Shown in pieces: positions 1,426-15,681 of a stretch of DNA of 27,885 nt. Within the stretch, counting starts at the first letter, position 1. Every line of letters starts with the position of its first letter. The notes beneath the pieces are model-generated. The model saw nothing but the letters and a program-made list of their open reading frames with translations, was not told where the DNA came from and ran no database searches. Origin of the DNA: a virus. The DNA is taken from the IMG/VR virus record IMGVR_UViG_3300042453_000719, positions 1-27,885 of that record; one strand, given 5' to 3'. The position numbers were made by a program, and so were the translations under genes.

Positions 1426-1429
1426 GCAA

Positions 1430-1437
1430 CAAAGATA
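1430..1437 (-). promoter_or_regulatory. Bacteroidota -7 box, leaderless geometry
   Basis: TATCTTTG matches the TAnnTTTG consensus and sits exactly four bases before the ATG of the 61-aa gene. I see no TTG at 17-23 bases upstream, so the -33 part is weak or absent. It falls just before the stop of the PAS-HisKA gene's 3' end spacer, at a gene boundary. Confidence 0.6.
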
Positions 1438-1438
1438 T

Positions 1439-2005
1439 TTAAATTTGTCTTGTGGCTTTCTTAACCAACAATTTAACTACCTCATCAAGCCTGTCCACTG
1501 ATGAAGCGATCATTATCATGATGCCACTCTTCTCCTGCTCGGTTGCCTCTGGATGATCAAGCAGCATTCGCACCAAGCCACCGATTGAAGTAAGCGGCTG
1601 CCTGAGCTCATGGCTTAACATAAATCTGAACTCTTCCAGGAGCACCTTCTGCCGTTCATGCTCATGTGCTGAAATAGATGTCACATCCACAAGCTGAATG
1701 CCAATAAAGTGCAGGCTGTCCATTATTGAGTAAACATTCCACATATTGTATCGCTCAGATCCAATCTTCTGCTTGGTCTTGGCATACACCCTGACAGCAT
1801 CGGGAGTATTCTTTTTTGCCTTCTTTATGGCCCTTAGAAGCTCATCTTTATCGGAGTCATGGGCTGCAATGTCCATGATATTGGATGGCTTGATGTGGCT
1901 GCTATATTCCTTGAACAAATCATTGGAGGCCACTATCTGACCATCCTGGTCACAGATAACATAAAAGAGATCAATAGATGATTCCAGGATATGCAGGCTT
2001 GCCAT
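1439..2005 (-). CDS. PAS-HisKA protein without ATPase domain
   Basis: This 188-residue protein has an N-terminal PAS-like fold (about 1-110: FYVICDQDGQIVASNDLF, then helices, then strands ending in FIGIQLVDVTS). It is followed by a linker helix and a HisKA dimerisation/phosphoacceptor domain (about 118-185). The H box reads FMLSHELRQPLTSIGGL, with His132 as the expected phosphoacceptor. The protein ends at residue 188 with no N, G1, F or G2 box, so no HATPase domain is present. The frame closes naturally and I see no continuation in the other frames, where the next gene starts 13 bases later. It could accept phosphate from a host kinase, form mixed dimers with host kinases, or act as a plain sensor. 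It lies inside the lysis cassette with its own -7 box and leaderless start. The domain call is firm; the role is inference. Confidence 0.85.
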   Translation of the reverse strand: MASLHILESSIDLFYVICDQDGQIVASNDLFKEYSSHIKPSNIMDIAAHDSDKDELLRAIKKAKKNTPDAVRVYAKTKQKIGSERYNMWNVYSIMDSLHFIGIQLVDVTSISAHEHERQKVLLEEFRFMLSHELRQPLTSIGGLVRMLLDHPEATEQEKSGIMIMIASSVDRLDEVVKLLVKKATRQI

Positions 2006-2009
2006 ATCA

Positions 2010-2017
2010 CAAAGATA
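2010..2017 (-). promoter_or_regulatory. Bacteroidota -7 box for the PAS-HisKA gene
   Basis: TATCTTTG lies four bases (TGAT) before the ATG at 2005, the same geometry as at 1430-1437 and 10888-10895. It sits 18 bases past the stop of the upstream gene. The nearest well-placed TTG is 25 bases upstream, slightly long. The predicted message has almost no leader. Confidence 0.65.
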
Positions 2018-2680: not shown

Positions 2681-3136
2681 TTATTTACAGAGTGAGAAAT
2701 ACAGATTAGCCTCTTCTCGCCTACGAGTCACCAATCCAGGCAGTACCTTGCCACCACCTCTCACCCACTTTTGGAACTCATCCAATATTGATGGATCAGC
2801 AGGATTGACTTTTGCCTTTTTTAAAAGTGTGGACTTAATGAATGCACCTGTGCCCACATTGTATGTGAATGACACAAGTGCATCAAATTGACATTGATTA
2901 AGGTTGGGTAAATGCCGATTCACAGCAGCCTCAAATGATTGTAAAGAGGCAAGCAATAATTGAGTGGCCTCTTTTTCGCTGCTTAATTTTTCGCCCAGGA
3001 TCACCTTGCGCCCATCAGGATATCTGGTGTTGCCGTAGCCAATTGTGGGCACCCCTGCCGGGCAGAGGTAGCTGCTCAATCTCAAGCCCTCATGCTTTTT
3101 AATTATTGCCAAACCGTTTGCCGATGTGGAGCGCAT
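2681..3136 (-). CDS. Endolysin, T4-type lysozyme (GH24), Cys in place of catalytic Asp
   Basis: The 151-residue length and motifs match phage T4-type lysozymes, which cleave the MurNAc-GlcNAc bond of peptidoglycan. The active-site segment has Glu16 in KKHEGLRL, then Cys25 and Thr31 in SYLCPAGVPTIGYG. Aligned with T4 lysozyme Glu11, Asp20 and Thr26, the Asp position is Cys. The middle motif ALVSFTYNVGTGAF (about 85-98) and the C-terminal GLVTRRREEANLY are typical of the family. There is no signal peptide or anchor, so export through the holin is expected. The start is ATG 3136, two bases after the previous stop. Function is close to certain; the Cys variant is discussed in the findings. Confidence 0.95.
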   Translation of the reverse strand: MRSTSANGLAIIKKHEGLRLSSYLCPAGVPTIGYGNTRYPDGRKVILGEKLSSEKEATQLLLASLQSFEAAVNRHLPNLNQCQFDALVSFTYNVGTGAFIKSTLLKKAKVNPADPSILDEFQKWVRGGGKVLPGLVTRRREEANLYFSLCK

Positions 3137-3138
3137 GA

Positions 3139-3636
3139 TTACAATACTAAATATTGAACGGTGATGTAGATGTAAGAGAATGATCCTCCAGTTGTGGCAT
3201 GAGTCAGATTTATCTTAGCTGTATTATTTACAGTATCTGCCTGCAATCCCCAAGATGTCAAGTCAGCAGGCACATTGTTATAAGCCACTATGCCCACCAA
3301 GTCTTTAACATTGGTAAAGTTTGATGCCACAGGTAGGCTCAATTCAAACTCTGCTTGTGTTTCGGCCACATCTAATGCAACATCTAAATAATATGTGCAA
3401 CTGACCACATCATTAACCCTGCTATAATAGCCAGCCAATGGTGCCACAATCTCATTGTAAGTTTCATTAGATACGGTTGGAGTAAAGCTGCCGCTATCAA
3501 ACTGAGGCATGCCATTAAATATGTTTTGAACCTCAATCTGCTTGGATTGATTGGCTGATGTGTCCACAATGTACATTACATCGGTGGGATCTGCCACCCC
3601 TAATGTGGTTAAGTCGGTTACTTTTACCCCTGCCAT
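3139..3636 (-). CDS. Tail fibre-associated structural protein, 165 aa
   Basis: The N-terminus KVTDLTTLGVADPTDVMYIV, followed by SANQSKQIEVQN, is a segment I know from the starts of Bacteroidota phage fibre and baseplate-decoration proteins, where it may dock onto the tail. The rest is strand-rich (QFDSGSFTPTVSNETYNEIV and on), with a C-terminal part ending in YIYITVQYLVL that looks like a beta-sandwich. It lies directly between the large fibre gene region and the lysozyme. Likely a second, shorter fibre or tip component; receptor binding is possible but unproven. Confidence 0.65.
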   Translation of the reverse strand: MAGVKVTDLTTLGVADPTDVMYIVDTSANQSKQIEVQNIFNGMPQFDSGSFTPTVSNETYNEIVAPLAGYYSRVNDVVSCTYYLDVALDVAETQAEFELSLPVASNFTNVKDLVGIVAYNNVPADLTSWGLQADTVNNTAKINLTHATTGGSFSYIYITVQYLVL

Positions 3637-3654
3637 AATTGGTTTGTTTATTTA

Positions 3655-3682
3655 CAAATTTACAAATTATTTAGATACTCAA
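3655..3682 (-). promoter_or_regulatory. Candidate promoter before the fibre-associated gene and lysis cassette
   Basis: On the minus strand TTG (3682-3680) is followed after 17 bases by TAAATTTG (3662-3655), which fits TTG-N17-TAnnTTTG. It lies at the stop codon of the 74-aa gene, 18 bases before the ATG at 3636. The local AT-richness makes a chance match possible. Confidence 0.4.
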
Positions 3683-3884
3683 TTAAATCAACTGAGCTTG
3701 TGTAGGTTTGACCGTTTATAGTATTCTCAGTCAATGTAAGCAGATATACACCCTGCTCAGTGATCACATGGAAGGTATTGTCATCAACAGTCTCCCACTT
3801 AGGATCAATCAGATTGGTTGATATTATACCACTGGCTGTGCTTACAAATTCAATATGTGTTGATGTAATATTGATATTATTCAT
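3660..3884 (-). CDS. Small hypothetical protein downstream of the fibre, 74 aa
   Basis: The product begins MNNINITSTHIEFVSTASG and is almost all predicted strands and turns (ending in SSVDLIEYLNNL), with no membrane segment and no cysteine. It starts two bases after the stop of the large fibre gene and runs in the same direction, so it is part of that operon. Size and place fit a fibre accessory factor or small virion protein. No family recognised. Confidence 0.55.
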   Translation of the reverse strand: MNNINITSTHIEFVSTASGIISTNLIDPKWETVDDNTFHVITEQGVYLLTLTENTINGQTYTSSVDLIEYLNNL

Positions 3885-3886
3885 GT

Positions 3887-6547
3887 TTACGGTTTTTCAA
3901 TCATGTAAAAACTTCCAAAGGTTACGTCTGCCCCACTTGTATTAAGCTGCAATGCAAACACAATGTATTGCTGCTGTGTCCAGTTTACCGCTGCCGTAGT
4001 GGTTAAATCGTATAAGCCGTAATCGGTAGCCACGCCTAAGCCGGGTGCAAAATATACCTCGGTGTTATTATTAGCAGTTTTAATTGCAAGATGCCTGATC
4101 ATCTGATTAACCAAGAATGATGGTGCTCCTGCATTCTGATGCGATCCAAGCAAGATTGGTGAGCCGCTAAGGTCAGGAGTTGCATTGGCATAGATGCGCA
4201 AGGTCATTGAATTTGCCGTTCCTGTTTTAGCCGTTCTGTAAGTTATTCTTACCACATCACCTGCTGCAAATGTATTGGCAGGAATTAGCTGAGTATATTT
4301 AACAGTGTTGGCTGTACCTGTATGCGTTGCCGAACTTATGGCAGATTTGTAAACTACCGAAGCAGCCGGTATGGTAGGGAAGGTTGCAAGTGTGCCATCG
4401 CCTCTGATGTACTCCGCTGTGGTTCCTGCTCCTGTCACAGCCAATGTTCCTGATGTGGTCACAGGACTATTGGCCACCGTAAATGCAGCAGGCATGGTTA
4501 GGCCCACAGATGTCACTGTGCCTGTTGGTATGGTCGGGAAGGTTGCAAGGCTGCCATCCCCTCTCAGATATTCTGATGTGGTGCCACCAAGCACATTGCC
4601 CAAAGTTCTATTTTTCCAAAGGTTGTTTACACCAGTGGTATAAACTAAAAATTGATTATTGGCAAGTGGTGTGGTAGTGATGTCCACATCTGACAGCTCA
4701 TCAAGCTGAAAGCCATTCTGCACAAATACATAAATCTGACCATTGCCTGCATTGGCCCTTTCCACAATTCCGATCCTGGTCAAGTGATTAGGTGCCAATG
4801 GCAGCACGTTTGTGAGTGCTCCTGCTGTATTGCCTACGTAAAGAGTATCTCCTGCTGTGTAAGCATTTGTATTTATACCATCAATTACCCCTTGAGTTAT
4901 GATGTAGCCTTTTTGATTCGGCCCAATTGAGCTGCTAAAAACTAAGCCAACAGTCTTGGAACTTGTAGCCTCTGATGTATTATTGGCAAGCTTAACAGTC
5001 ATACGATCTCCAGTTGCACCAAAGGCATAGACTGGCTGACCTCTGTTAATAGTCACACTGTCTGCATTGGTGATGTATGCAAACATCTGATTGGGTGCGA
5101 CACCTAAAAGCTGAAAGTTTGTACCATCATAAATGGCAATGAATTGCTGATTTGCAGCAATGTCTCCTCCAATAATTGGCACCACATTATTCTTTGATAT
5201 ATTGACAGCTCCAAGGCCGTTAATATTTAAAGTGGATGCACCTGTGTTGGCATTGGTGAATCCAATGGCATATGCATCATTGGTATTGTAAGAAGTCACA
5301 CCAGGAATTGATACGGTGTAAGTATCAGTGCCACTGGCTGTGCCCCCCTGCATACCTGTTGCTGCTGTGCTGTCAATGGTGAATGATGGATAGGTGCCGG
5401 TCACAGTTATATCTGTGCCACCTGTTATGCTCACCACCTGATCTGGTGCTGTATTATCAATGGTGAAATTTGGATAAGTACCTGATGTGCTGATGCCTGT
5501 GCCTGCCGTTAATGATACAATCTGATCTGGTGCTGTATTATCAATTGTGACACCTGTTATACTTATTCCTGTGCCGGCTGTGAGCTGATCTTGCTTGCCA
5601 TCGAATGTGGCCCAATCTGCCGAACTAAGATAGCCATCAGTGGTGGCATCAGCTTGAGTGATTGAGATGTCTGGAGTAGCACCACCGCTTGAGGCAATCG
5701 GTGCTGTGCCTGTCACAGATGTGACACCACCACCTCCGCCTCCGCCTGGCACATTAACCTGCACCACACCTGGCGAAGTTAATGAGGCAGTCACTCCTGC
5801 CCCTGTGAAGTTCAATGTGGTGGTATTGGTGCTGACATTCACCCCTTCATCTTGCGTTCTAAGTGGTGTGCTGCCTCCACCTCCGATGGCCACAAGTGGA
5901 TCGGCAGGTGTACCATTGCCAGTGATTGTCACCCCATCCACAGCAACCTCTGTGAGGCAAGGTGTGCAAGGCTCGAAGTCAGGGAGTGGAATATCACCTG
6001 TGGCACAGGTATCATAACAGCCATCCTCACTGCCACTCACCACATTAATATCAACATCAATTGTGACAGATGCCCACTCATAATTTGCAGGCAGGCTCTT
6101 GATCTCATTGGTGTACCCATTGGGCACTACCTCATAAGACACCACACCAATGGCTGTCTTAAATTGTGGATCGGTGCCGCTTATTAGCTTGAGCACCCTT
6201 GATGCAATCCAATCCTGTGCATCAGCAGAGTCACATGGCAGGTGGCTCTTGCGGACCACTGCATTGGCAGATAGGCTGTACTTTGTCTCATACATAGACT
6301 TACAGCCTGCCAATCTAAAGGTCTCAATCTTGTTGACTGATATCTTGCCACGCTTGGCCCAGAACAACGTGCCCTGTTTAGCATCGAAATTGGTCACAGG
6401 GATTGCCTGCCCATTGCCGATGTAGTGAATCCATGCTTTGTCATTGCCATCAGCCGCAAGCTCTGAGAGGCCATATATCTGATCAAAGATATTGCCCACA
6501 GCCACACGTTGATTCAATCTGTCAATTATGGTAGATAGTAAGTTCAT
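3887..6547 (-). CDS. Large tail fibre/adhesin with internal repeats
   Basis: This 886-residue protein probably forms the main host-contact fibre. The first 200 residues look globular (a tail-attachment part with cysteines). Then come PGGGGGGGVTSVTGTAP, the LSSADWATFDGKQDQLTAGT segment common in fibres of Bacteroidota phages, a 28-residue repeat (IDNTAPDQ with VSLTAGTGIS and VSITGGTDIT copies), a central strand-rich region, and a pair of modules carrying EYLRGDGSLATFPTIP and EYIRGDGTLATFPTIP about 53 residues apart. The last 150 residues look like a jelly-roll binding head. No enzyme motif seen. It overlaps the upstream gene by 4 bases (ATGA). The fibre call is strong; the receptor is unknown. 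Confidence 0.85.
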   Translation of the reverse strand: MNLLSTIIDRLNQRVAVGNIFDQIYGLSELAADGNDKAWIHYIGNGQAIPVTNFDAKQGTLFWAKRGKISVNKIETFRLAGCKSMYETKYSLSANAVVRKSHLPCDSADAQDWIASRVLKLISGTDPQFKTAIGVVSYEVVPNGYTNEIKSLPANYEWASVTIDVDINVVSGSEDGCYDTCATGDIPLPDFEPCTPCLTEVAVDGVTITGNGTPADPLVAIGGGGSTPLRTQDEGVNVSTNTTTLNFTGAGVTASLTSPGVVQVNVPGGGGGGGVTSVTGTAPIASSGGATPDISITQADATTDGYLSSADWATFDGKQDQLTAGTGISITGVTIDNTAPDQIVSLTAGTGISTSGTYPNFTIDNTAPDQVVSITGGTDITVTGTYPSFTIDSTAATGMQGGTASGTDTYTVSIPGVTSYNTNDAYAIGFTNANTGASTLNINGLGAVNISKNNVVPIIGGDIAANQQFIAIYDGTNFQLLGVAPNQMFAYITNADSVTINRGQPVYAFGATGDRMTVKLANNTSEATSSKTVGLVFSSSIGPNQKGYIITQGVIDGINTNAYTAGDTLYVGNTAGALTNVLPLAPNHLTRIGIVERANAGNGQIYVFVQNGFQLDELSDVDITTTPLANNQFLVYTTGVNNLWKNRTLGNVLGGTTSEYLRGDGSLATFPTIPTGTVTSVGLTMPAAFTVANSPVTTSGTLAVTGAGTTAEYIRGDGTLATFPTIPAASVVYKSAISSATHTGTANTVKYTQLIPANTFAAGDVVRITYRTAKTGTANSMTLRIYANATPDLSGSPILLGSHQNAGAPSFLVNQMIRHLAIKTANNNTEVYFAPGLGVATDYGLYDLTTTAAVNWTQQQYIVFALQLNTSGADVTFGSFYMIEKP
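4369..4588 (-). repeat. Diverged direct repeat in the fibre gene, 159-base spacing
   Basis: Two related stretches of about 60 bases start near 4369 and 4528. They encode the paired modules EYIRGDGTLATFPTIP and EYLRGDGSLATFPTIP. The divergence is mostly at silent positions, which points to old duplication kept under protein selection. Confidence 0.7.
5439..5550 (-). repeat. Direct repeat in the fibre gene, 84-base period
   Basis: A 28-base string at 5439-5466 recurs at 5523-5550 with one difference. The 84-base period is 28 codons and encodes the repeated IDNTAPDQ-VSLTAGTGIS unit; a third, more diverged protein copy ends in IDSTAATG. Such repeats can vary in number by recombination. Confidence 0.75.
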
Positions 6548-8219: not shown

Positions 8220-9263
8220 CTATGGATTAACAATGCTTACGCAATTCACATAGTTCACACCTGCGAATTTATCAGCAGCCTCATAGATGTCAGTTGGCAA
8301 TGTTACGATCTTACCAGTTGTAGTCAATACAATTGATAAGTTGCCACAGTCATCTTTCATGGTAAGATCAACAGGTACTCCTGCCGGTGTAAACACCAAA
8401 GTCTTAGAGTAGTTGCTTCCTGCCACTGGAGTGATGCCAGTATTCCAATCAGCTAAGTTGAAAGATAGCCACTGGATTGCTCCTGCTGTGGTCACCAATG
8501 CCTTAGACTGAGATCCCTGAGCAGCAGCCAAACGTGCATCGTAAGCAAATCCAAAGCCGTTTTGCTGAGTGATGGCAAGAAGATCAAGGCCATACTGTGA
8601 GCAGCAGCCTGCTGCCATTGCATTAGCATAACGCTGCATGGCAGCACCACCAAATGCCACAGGAGCACCAGGATAGTTGGCCATACGAGTTGCCTGCTGA
8701 ATGTCAGCAATTGCAAATGGATTAGGCTCAGTTGTGCCGTTCATGGTAGCAATCTGCAAGCAGTCAGAAGATACAGTGTAGAAATCTTCTACATCAGTAC
8801 CCCATGCACCAGTCTCAGCAACAGCTTGAGTGGCAGCAGCAGAGGCAACCTTGCGATCAATCACATCCATCAAGCGCATAACTGACTCAAGTACATATCG
8901 AGAATTCTCCTGGCAGTGACGTGCGATATCAGCAGCATTGATAAGCTGTGATGCAACATAAGTATCAGTGGTGTCCACAGTGTAGGTGGTAGTGCTGTCA
9001 CCGTATGTGTTTTCAGAAGTACATGTAAGGATGTCACCACCCTCAGTCACTTCTGTCTCAGGCAAACGCTGAATCCAACGTGCTTGAACGGTCTTAAGTT
9101 TACCACCGCCTGGAGATACCTCAGTGCGGATAAGTTTTGAATTTTCTGGTGAAAGCAAAAACTCCAAAAATGGAAGCTGCTCTCTTTGGCCCACTTCAAT
9201 GAAGAGCTCAGATAATGACATCTGAACATTAGGGCATTCTGAAAGAATACGTGAAATTGACAT
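8220..9263 (-). CDS. Major capsid protein candidate, 347 aa
   Basis: I start at ATG 9263 (MSISRILSECPNVQMSLSEL); the frame extends to 9326, but that part would contain the leader hairpin. Length, place after a scaffold-like gene, isolation between a strong promoter array and a strong terminator, and even, soluble composition all fit the main head protein, presumably of HK97 fold. Visible parts include an N-terminal helix region, an E-loop-like strand region (KLKTVQARWIQRLPETEVTE), a long helix with a basic Arg-rich part (QENSRYVLESVMRLMDVIDR) and a C-terminal strand domain. Eight cysteines are unusual for a capsid protein. Identity is inferred from context, as I do not recognise the sequence itself. 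Confidence 0.75.
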   Translation of the reverse strand: MSISRILSECPNVQMSLSELFIEVGQREQLPFLEFLLSPENSKLIRTEVSPGGGKLKTVQARWIQRLPETEVTEGGDILTCTSENTYGDSTTTYTVDTTDTYVASQLINAADIARHCQENSRYVLESVMRLMDVIDRKVASAAATQAVAETGAWGTDVEDFYTVSSDCLQIATMNGTTEPNPFAIADIQQATRMANYPGAPVAFGGAAMQRYANAMAAGCCSQYGLDLLAITQQNGFGFAYDARLAAAQGSQSKALVTTAGAIQWLSFNLADWNTGITPVAGSNYSKTLVFTPAGVPVDLTMKDDCGNLSIVLTTTGKIVTLPTDIYEAADKFAGVNYVNCVSIVNP

Positions 9264-9284
9264 AGTTAAAATGTAAATGGTTTG

Positions 9285-9307
9285 CCTTAGATTATTAGGC
9301 TCTAAGG
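9285..9307 (-). promoter_or_regulatory. Hairpin in the capsid mRNA leader
   Basis: Arms CCTTAGA and TCTAAGG pair perfectly over 7 bases around a 9-base loop, 22 bases before the capsid ATG. The leader from the 9362 promoter is about 93 bases. With no T run after it, the hairpin is more likely a stabiliser or translation control element than a terminator. Confidence 0.5.
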
Positions 9308-10883: not shown

Positions 10884-10887
10884 GCCA

Positions 10888-10918
10888 CAAAGATAATGTA
10901 TTGTAAATTCAAAAGCAA
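10888..10918 (-). promoter_or_regulatory. Promoter of the scaffold-capsid unit
   Basis: TTG (10918-10916), 20 bases, TATCTTTG (10895-10888), then TGGC and ATG. Both boxes match the Bacteroidota consensus, with the start codon where transcription should begin. It is divergent from the rightward promoter at 10984-11013. Confidence 0.8.
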
Positions 10919-14150: not shown

Positions 14151-14747
14151 TTAACGCTGTATTAAAGAGAGGCCTCTGCCCTCTGATGTGTTCAATGTTA
14201 CTGTGTTGTACTTATAGTGATTGGCATATTCAATCAGCTTCTTTACATCAGCAATGTGGATGGTGTCATGGTAGGCTATCACACCGCCCGGCTTGATCAC
14301 TCTCTCAATCTCTTTGAACTCTGGGAGGATATTCTCCCATGAATGATCTCCATCGACAAAGATAAAATCAAAGTGATCCTCAGGCATATTGGCAAGCACC
14401 TTGATGGATTCACCTAAAATAAAGTTCCATCCTTTGCCTGCCTTGTTGAAGTCAAGCTTTCTGTAATCATTGATGTCAATGCCAGTGTACTTGCCACCGA
14501 TCGGCAGGGCCTCAATCATCTTAACCGATGTCTCACCCTCAAAGACTCCAATCTCAAGCACGTTCTTATAGCCGTTCATCTTAATCAATGAGCCAATGAA
14601 TTGACACACATCAATCTCACTGTTCCAATCGTGTCTGGCTTCCTCTTTAAAGGTGGCAGTGGTGACAATCTTTTTTTCAGCCTTCGGTTTAGTGGCCACT
14701 TCCTTCTTTGGCCTCCCTGCTTTCTTTTTAGCGTTTTGGGTCTGCAT
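14151..14747 (-). CDS. SAM-dependent methyltransferase, class I
   Basis: After a basic N-terminal tail with AGRPKKE (residues 10-16, AT-hook-like) comes a Rossmann methyltransferase domain. Motif I is NVLEIGVFEGETS (62-74) and Asp91 in GIDINDY is the usual ribose-binding acid. Then come FIFVDGDHSWENI (128-140) and KPGGVIAYHDT (152-162). The VDGDHS and YHDT segments are typical of the Methyltransf_24 group, often found in sugar and surface-polymer clusters, with D132, D134, H135 and H160/D161 as possible metal ligands. It overlaps the glycosyltransferase gene by 20 bases, so the two are probably made together; a methylated sugar added to virion protein is the natural hypothesis. The substrate is not shown by sequence. 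Confidence 0.85.
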   Translation of the reverse strand: MQTQNAKKKAGRPKKEVATKPKAEKKIVTTATFKEEARHDWNSEIDVCQFIGSLIKMNGYKNVLEIGVFEGETSVKMIEALPIGGKYTGIDINDYRKLDFNKAGKGWNFILGESIKVLANMPEDHFDFIFVDGDHSWENILPEFKEIERVIKPGGVIAYHDTIHIADVKKLIEYANHYKYNTVTLNTSEGRGLSLIQR

Positions 14748-15681
14748 GTTTATTTGAGATTATACGATGGATAAAATATTTGTGCATCTTGTTTTCCTCC
14801 CTCATCCACGACTTAAGCAGCCTATCAAGCCACTCAATGTAAAAGGCAGGTGTGAAGCCTTGCCCACCATAGTAAGATTGAAGGTAGTACAATTGTGTGA
14901 CTTGTGCATAGTTCATCCCCCTGCGATCTGTGAAGTGGATGAAGCCAATCTCTGCATGGTCATTGCGGCCCACCTCACCAATGGCAGGATCCATCCCTAA
15001 CTTAGCCAAAGCACAGTTCATGTATAGCTCATCTGGCTGCCCACCGCCCCACTTGGTGCGGAGTTTGGCAATCGGGATTGGATTATGGTGGTAGTAATCT
15101 TGAGCCACCTTAAAAAGATTCAATGACTCATTGCACTTCTTAATATATTGAATGCTGCTATTGATGGCAGGCAGTACAGTCTTTTCATCAAAGTTATATT
15201 GACTCCAAATGTCATCAGCCCATGCCCACTGCATGGAGTCAATCTTGCGCCCCTGATCAATGGTGTGATAGCCTACACAATGGCTTGCATACGGTTTGCC
15301 ACTTTGGATCAGCACATCAATCATTGGCTGAATGTCTTTTAAGGCCACTGCATCCACATCCAAATATACGTTGTGTGTGAATGGCAGGTAATAATATAGA
15401 TTAACCTTTGCCTTGCCTGGATCAATCTTTTTGTTGGTGTAAAGGTTCTCCTGCAAGATGGGCCGGATCACATCCACCACCTCATGAAGATCACCACAGT
15501 ATTTATCCACATCCTCCTTGCTTTCAACCAAGCAGGCAATCTGAATGGACTTATTAAACCTCTTAATTGAATAGGCTAAGTTATAAGCAGCCCAATAATA
15601 TTGCGGCCTGCCAAATGCCATGAGCACCACCCCTGTATCAGAGGCAGTGCTGTGGCTTATTTGTTGGCTTGTTTCCATCAT
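14728..15681 (-). CDS. GT-A type glycosyltransferase
   Basis: This 317-residue protein has an N-terminal nucleotide-sugar-binding pattern (GVVLMAFGRPQYYWAAYNLA, then SIQIACLVESKED) and a D-x-D motif, Asp108-Val-Asp110 in HNVYLDVDAVALKD, which binds metal and the nucleotide sugar in GT-A enzymes, here most like GT8-type. Further motifs include GGGQPDELYMNCALAKLG and IGFIHFTDRRGM, where the His probably lies near the metal. No membrane anchor is seen, so it acts in the cytoplasm. Its start shares the A of the upstream stop (TAATG), tying it to the tail-tube candidate. Donor and acceptor are unknown; virion protein or phage DNA are both possible targets. Confidence 0.8.
   Translation of the reverse strand: MMETSQQISHSTASDTGVVLMAFGRPQYYWAAYNLAYSIKRFNKSIQIACLVESKEDVDKYCGDLHEVVDVIRPILQENLYTNKKIDPGKAKVNLYYYLPFTHNVYLDVDAVALKDIQPMIDVLIQSGKPYASHCVGYHTIDQGRKIDSMQWAWADDIWSQYNFDEKTVLPAINSSIQYIKKCNESLNLFKVAQDYYHHNPIPIAKLRTKWGGGQPDELYMNCALAKLGMDPAIGEVGRNDHAEIGFIHFTDRRGMNYAQVTQLYYLQSYYGGQGFTPAFYIEWLDRLLKSWMREENKMHKYFIHRIISNKHADPKR

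Follow-up and report, generated by a model that had tools for sequence, protein, structure and literature searches.

A PAS-HisKA protein without an ATPase domain holds a fixed place in the lysis operon of a group of Bacteroidota-type phages

The lysis operon of an IMG/VR virus (IMGVR_UViG_3300042453_000719), analysed here over a window of 27,885 nt, encodes a 188-aa protein that joins a PAS fold to the HisKA (DHp) two-helix hairpin of histidine kinases and has no ATPase domain. The same half kinase, of nearly constant length and in the same operon position, is found throughout a large, previously unnamed group of Bacteroidota-type, apparently virulent phages. Domains, truncation and lysis-operon position are direct observations, and from them we infer a function that we favour at somewhat short of an even chance: the soluble PAS-DHp protein would be charged in trans by a host kinase, would be defective as a phosphatase, and would redirect or drain host two-component signalling at lysis.

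The open reading frame (ORF) occupies positions 1439-2005 of the window on the minus strand, with an ATG start and a stop after ...VKKATRQI. A HisKA match was obtained at residues 129-177 (Pfam, E=8.3e-8, 32.6 bits against a cut-off of 26.9), and alignment to solved histidine kinases places His132 (codon at 1610-1612, minus strand; H-box LSHELRQP) at the position of their phospho-acceptor histidine, followed by Glu133 and, at H+4, by Gln136. ATPase boxes are absent, and nothing follows the second DHp helix. The N-terminal half falls below the cut-off by sequence (PAS_9, E=0.05), whereas its PAS fold is clear in the predicted structure. An AlphaFold2 model built from 25 relatives (pLDDT 74 overall, 81-93 across most of the PAS part) comprises a PAS fold at residues 13-107 (1685-1969, minus strand), ending in the invariant DVT motif of residues 107-109, and a two-helix hairpin at residues 113-186 (1448-1669, minus strand) in which helices 113-150 and 156-186, both long, run antiparallel. 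Aligned to PAS-B domains, the PAS part of the model (residues ~11-106) gave Z ~14 over 92-100 residues, with rmsd ~1.9 over ~94 residues (VIA-align). This comparison mainly probes the PAS part, and the DHp assignment rests on sequence together with Foldseek, in which LOV-histidine kinase constructs were among the best whole-model matches. The original prediction, made from the DNA letters alone, had described a half kinase with an intact H-box at His132, a natural stop and no ATPase boxes, all of which was confirmed; the PAS-like domain that it proposed is upheld by structure and remains sub-threshold by sequence.

Scanning IMG/VR recovered relatives in 324 contigs, or 394 with a more diverse query (~390 relatives), from which 214 distinct gene sequences with identity down to 50% were examined. 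Their products are 185-189 aa long. The stop codon follows the same residue in 441 of 443 complete ORFs and none of them encodes an ATPase domain, indicating that the ATPase-less form is the natural state and ruling out a frameshift or sequencing error that masks an ATPase domain. One gene (L151:4993-5576) is broken by a frameshift that separates its PAS and HisKA parts, reflecting either an error or a real loss. A profile search for HisKA was positive in all 25 diverse representatives of the family, and in a 25-member alignment (identity down to 50%) the LLE-FRF-LSHELRQP segment and the DVTS at the end of the PAS domain are invariant. The histidine is present in 446/446 loci with a readable strict motif (FRxLSxE). 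Some of the scans were keyed on the H-box and were repeated with PAS-region patterns blind to it; the relatives found in this way also retain His-Glu. Among distinct genes the H-box reads HELRQP in 202, HEIRQP in five, HELRHP in one and HELLSP in one, the last belonging to the most distant member of the family (L375), in which His-Glu is kept despite changes in the remainder of the box. Pairwise dN/dS was 0.073 across the whole gene and 0.035 within residues 107-145, compared with 0.104 for the lysozyme next to it; the gene is under strong purifying selection and the surroundings of the H-box are its most constrained segment.

The gene order on the minus strand is lysozyme, holin-like, transmembrane (TM) protein, PAS-HisKA, 61-aa protein and spanin-like protein. 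The identity of the endolysin (2681-3136, 151 aa) is certain (Phage_lysozyme, Pfam E=2e-39; PHROG 7 endolysin, E=3e-53), with the putative holin and spanin assigned by topology. The holin-like small membrane protein HOL67 (2427-2630, 67 aa) has a conserved position and a weak PHROG holin match in relatives (E=0.06). It is followed by a 134-aa protein of conserved position with a single C-terminal TM helix (2036-2440), identified by alignment. In the 225-aa envelope protein (582-1259), a hydrophobic segment at the N terminus runs up to an invariant Cys and is followed by a middle part that looks beta-rich and by a hydrophobic helix at the C terminus, a layout resembling that of a u-spanin with a non-canonical lipobox. 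The L375 contig lacks this protein; directly upstream of its PAS-HisKA gene it encodes a 153-aa protein that combines a lipobox (LSSC) with a C-terminal TM helix. This u-spanin layout favours reading the 225-aa protein as a spanin. In some divergent phages a ~250-aa signal-peptide protein is inserted between the lysozyme and the holin-like gene (L320:3486-4245 and L317, ~3476-4250). The 61-aa protein (1240-1425) is always immediately 3' of the PAS-HisKA gene, has an invariant MP turn and no known relatives, and is a possible partner. It was modelled as three helices (pLDDT 87), and a structural search gave no match with E below 6.

Among loci with enough flanking sequence, the neighbourhood of the PAS-HisKA gene is conserved in 321/321 upstream and 296/297 downstream, counts that take in overlapping loci of the same contigs. 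The converse comparison started from the spanin-like gene: all 412 loci with at least 900 nt upstream, drawn from the best 80 or 120 matches per scan, carry the PAS-HisKA gene, and no cassette without it was seen among them. Of 181 distinct loci, 116 show a four-base overlap between the PAS-HisKA stop and the start of the 61-aa gene, an arrangement typical of translationally coupled operons. Random genomic placement is ruled out by this constant order. The original prediction had proposed looking for the gene beside endolysins in relatives and had named random placement, along with a missing HisKA match and a restoring frameshift, as findings that would speak against it; none of the three was borne out. 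Its placement in a lysis cassette was likewise correct, with one amendment: the gene follows HOL67 and the 134-aa TM protein and precedes the 61-aa gene, after which comes the envelope protein.

A Bacteroidota -7-box-like motif, TATCTTTG, is located 4 nt before the PAS-HisKA ATG (2010-2017, minus strand) and is clade-specific. With identical spacing, TATCTTTG-N4-ATG stands before three genes of the window (1426-1437, 2006-2017 and 10884-10895, minus strand), and these sites would yield leaderless transcripts if they act as Bacteroidota-type -7 boxes. Across the family the arrangement was found in 61 of 118 distinct regions upstream of PAS-HisKA genes, so that the promoter motif is not a defining part of the system. 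The leaderless promoter suggested earlier is thus present in the window, and the argument that the gene has a promoter of its own carries little weight, since in most of the family the gene is operonic and often shares the 4-nt overlap with the next gene.

Bacteroidota are the inferred hosts of these phages, based on a single match in bacterial genomes, which belongs to a Bacteroidota MAG, on terminase relatives that include Flavobacterium phage 11b (at best 33% identity), and on TAnnTTTG motifs before several genes. That match, on a 3.7-kb contig (L375), was the only one in genome contigs of 84,980 species, and no integrase was found in 16 related phage records; the near absence of the gene from bacterial genomes and the lack of an integrase in these records make the phages look virulent, and a prophage or host gene was rejected on the same grounds. 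Comparison of the protein with the named phages of INPHARED (tblastn) returned nothing but Listeria kinase fragments at 34%, and the capsid-region protein at 8220-9290 had no match among named phages. Within the structural gene block, glycosyltransferase-like and methyltransferase-like ORFs, judged by eye, adjoin each other (14151-15681, minus strand).

Partner genes were sought by profile in related phage records of 22-40 kb that are not certified complete. Neither HATPase_c nor Response_reg (receiver) domains exceeded the cut-off in 30 such records, and HATPase_c_2 was not found in 16; each search had positive controls in reference genomes (14/14 for HATPase_c). A single Response_reg match below threshold (L250, G029:C1:27355-27537; 15.9 bits against a cut-off of 30.2) is probably due to chance. 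A split kinase with a phage-coded ATPase partner was therefore rejected for the records searched (30 for HATPase_c, 16 for HATPase_c_2), and any partner must be supplied by the host, subject to the uncertified completeness of the records. On the host side, the nearest matches are long PAS kinases (E ~1e-11) with H-boxes of the HDLR[AS]P or HNLRSP type. The idea that the protein acts on host partners, put forward in the original prediction, is a natural reading of a half kinase fixed in a lysis operon with no phage partner found.

Which reaction such a partner would support is suggested by the H-box. In HisKA kinases, the acidic residue that follows the histidine is required for autophosphorylation and not for phosphatase activity, as seen in CrdS, HK853 and two further members; the Thr or Asn at H+4 is required for phosphatase activity only, and replacing the H+4 residue of CrdS by Gln (N375Q) leaves no measurable phosphatase activity (PMC3510030). 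Members of the phage family never vary at His132 or Glu133 and nearly all of them have Gln136 at H+4, which by analogy is the pattern of a DHp domain competent for the kinase step and defective as a phosphatase. The string LSHELRQPL occurs in none of 198 Bacteroidota genomes, compared with 55 of 61 for the control SHELRTPL, making Gln at H+4 a phage feature and not a copy of a common host motif; relaxing the pattern while keeping Gln at H+4 gave matches in 3 of 61 genomes. Since Gln at H+4 also occurs in host kinases of the HELNQP type, the predicted loss of phosphatase activity is an extrapolation from one kinase, CrdS. Taken together, invariant Glu133, Gln at H+4 and the absence of LSHELRQPL from the Bacteroidota genomes searched favour trans-phosphorylation by a host ATPase domain. 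Of the mechanisms offered in the original prediction, pairing with host kinases gains from the invariance of a residue needed for the kinase step alone (PMC3510030), a phosphate sink is possible, and PAS-dependent tuning of lysis timing is compatible with the data.

In the proposed mechanism, the ATPase domain typical of histidine kinases would have been lost from the gene, or would never have been part of it, and the gene was retained as a fixed, late member of the lysis operon. Through its DHp helices the protein would form homodimers or pair with a host histidine kinase, and the ATPase domain of a host kinase would phosphorylate His132 in trans; such phosphorylation of an isolated DHp domain is established for EnvZ. 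With Gln at H+4, the PAS-DHp protein would not dephosphorylate response regulators. It may act as a PAS-gated branch point that captures phosphoryl groups as the envelope is dismantled. Their onward transfer to a response regulator of the host would lock on an envelope or stress output; alternatively, the protein would drain them from the normal host pathway. That lytic phages carry this as a host-kinase-charged lysis-operon device, through which lysis or the envelope response is gated by host signalling, and that it represents a new class of regulator of phage lysis or of host takeover, is possible but should be regarded as doubtful at this stage. The conserved His-Glu pair could instead reflect binding of another partner and not phosphorylation.

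An unlikely, though the best surviving, alternative is a RetS-like antagonist, in which inactive heterodimers would silence one host kinase and block the envelope-stress response to lysis, making phosphorylation of His132 unnecessary. RetS itself, a hybrid kinase-like protein of the membrane, carries a receiver domain and retains its ATPase domain, which sets it apart from the phage protein, and dimerisation alone would not require an invariant His-Glu pair in the most constrained segment. A DHp domain without an ATPase domain is nevertheless a natural dominant-negative partner, no partner kinase was found in the phage records, and kinase-kinase interaction is established for RetS and GacS (PMC12148439).

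About equally unlikely is a lysis-timing switch apart from two-component signalling, in which the DHp helices would bind a neighbour to hold or release lysis in response to energy, redox state or a small molecule sensed by the PAS domain. The gene always lies between the holin-like and spanin-like genes, commonly with the 4-nt overlap with the 61-aa gene, and the DVT motif, which couples PAS to output, never varies. The candidate neighbours are the holin-like, 134-aa TM and 61-aa helical proteins, but neighbours diverge fast (identity of the TM protein between clades falls to 15-25%, whereas that of the PAS-HisKA protein stays at 50-80%), and the switch leaves the invariant His-Glu without explanation.

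It is improbable that the protein is a phosphatase for a host response regulator. Isolated DHp domains can strip phosphate, and a DHp construct of HK853 dephosphorylates its regulator (PMC5727384), but nearly all members have Gln at H+4, the substitution that kills phosphatase activity in CrdS, and the Glu after the histidine is dispensable for that activity yet invariant here. A decayed host gene, carried as a passenger fragment of a truncated kinase, would fit the clear relation to host PAS-HisKA proteins but has a very slim chance. It is refuted as an account of the family in general: selection on the gene is strongly purifying, its length and place are fixed, and no losses were seen.

The protein shares with HisKA kinases (HK853, EnvZ and CrdS) the PAS-to-DHp order, the H-box, the two-helix hairpin and the invariant His-Glu. 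It differs from them in lacking the ATP-binding domain, in having Gln instead of Thr or Asn at H+4, in its length of 188 aa, in its lysis-operon location and in having no cognate receiver above cut-off in the 30 phage records. Spo0B, ChpT and PhyT/PhyP are likewise kinase-derived DHp proteins that carry phosphate between proteins without using ATP (PMC5898713); they are cellular relays that retain a degenerate ATPase-like C-terminal domain, whereas the phage protein is viral and ends at helix 2. The likeness to RetS-type antagonists lies in possible action through DHp kinase-kinase interaction. Full histidine kinases and PAS proteins of uncultured Caudovirales (BFVD), which share Foldseek similarity, also bring signalling domains into phage genomes, but those listed as histidine kinases are mostly longer and none is shown in a lysis operon. 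We found no HisKA-only phage protein, or two-component element in a lysis cassette, described in the literature consulted.

A half sensor kinase always at the same place in the lysis operon suggests that these phages plug into host signalling near the time of burst. If this is correct, a whole phage group would depend on a half sensor kinase wired into its lysis operon, going beyond the view of phage kinases as accessories, and lysis control would be tied to host two-component signalling in Bacteroidota, in which phage lysis has been little studied. The family would also supply a naturally occurring, conserved DHp module, defective as a phosphatase, with which trans-phosphorylation could be dissected.
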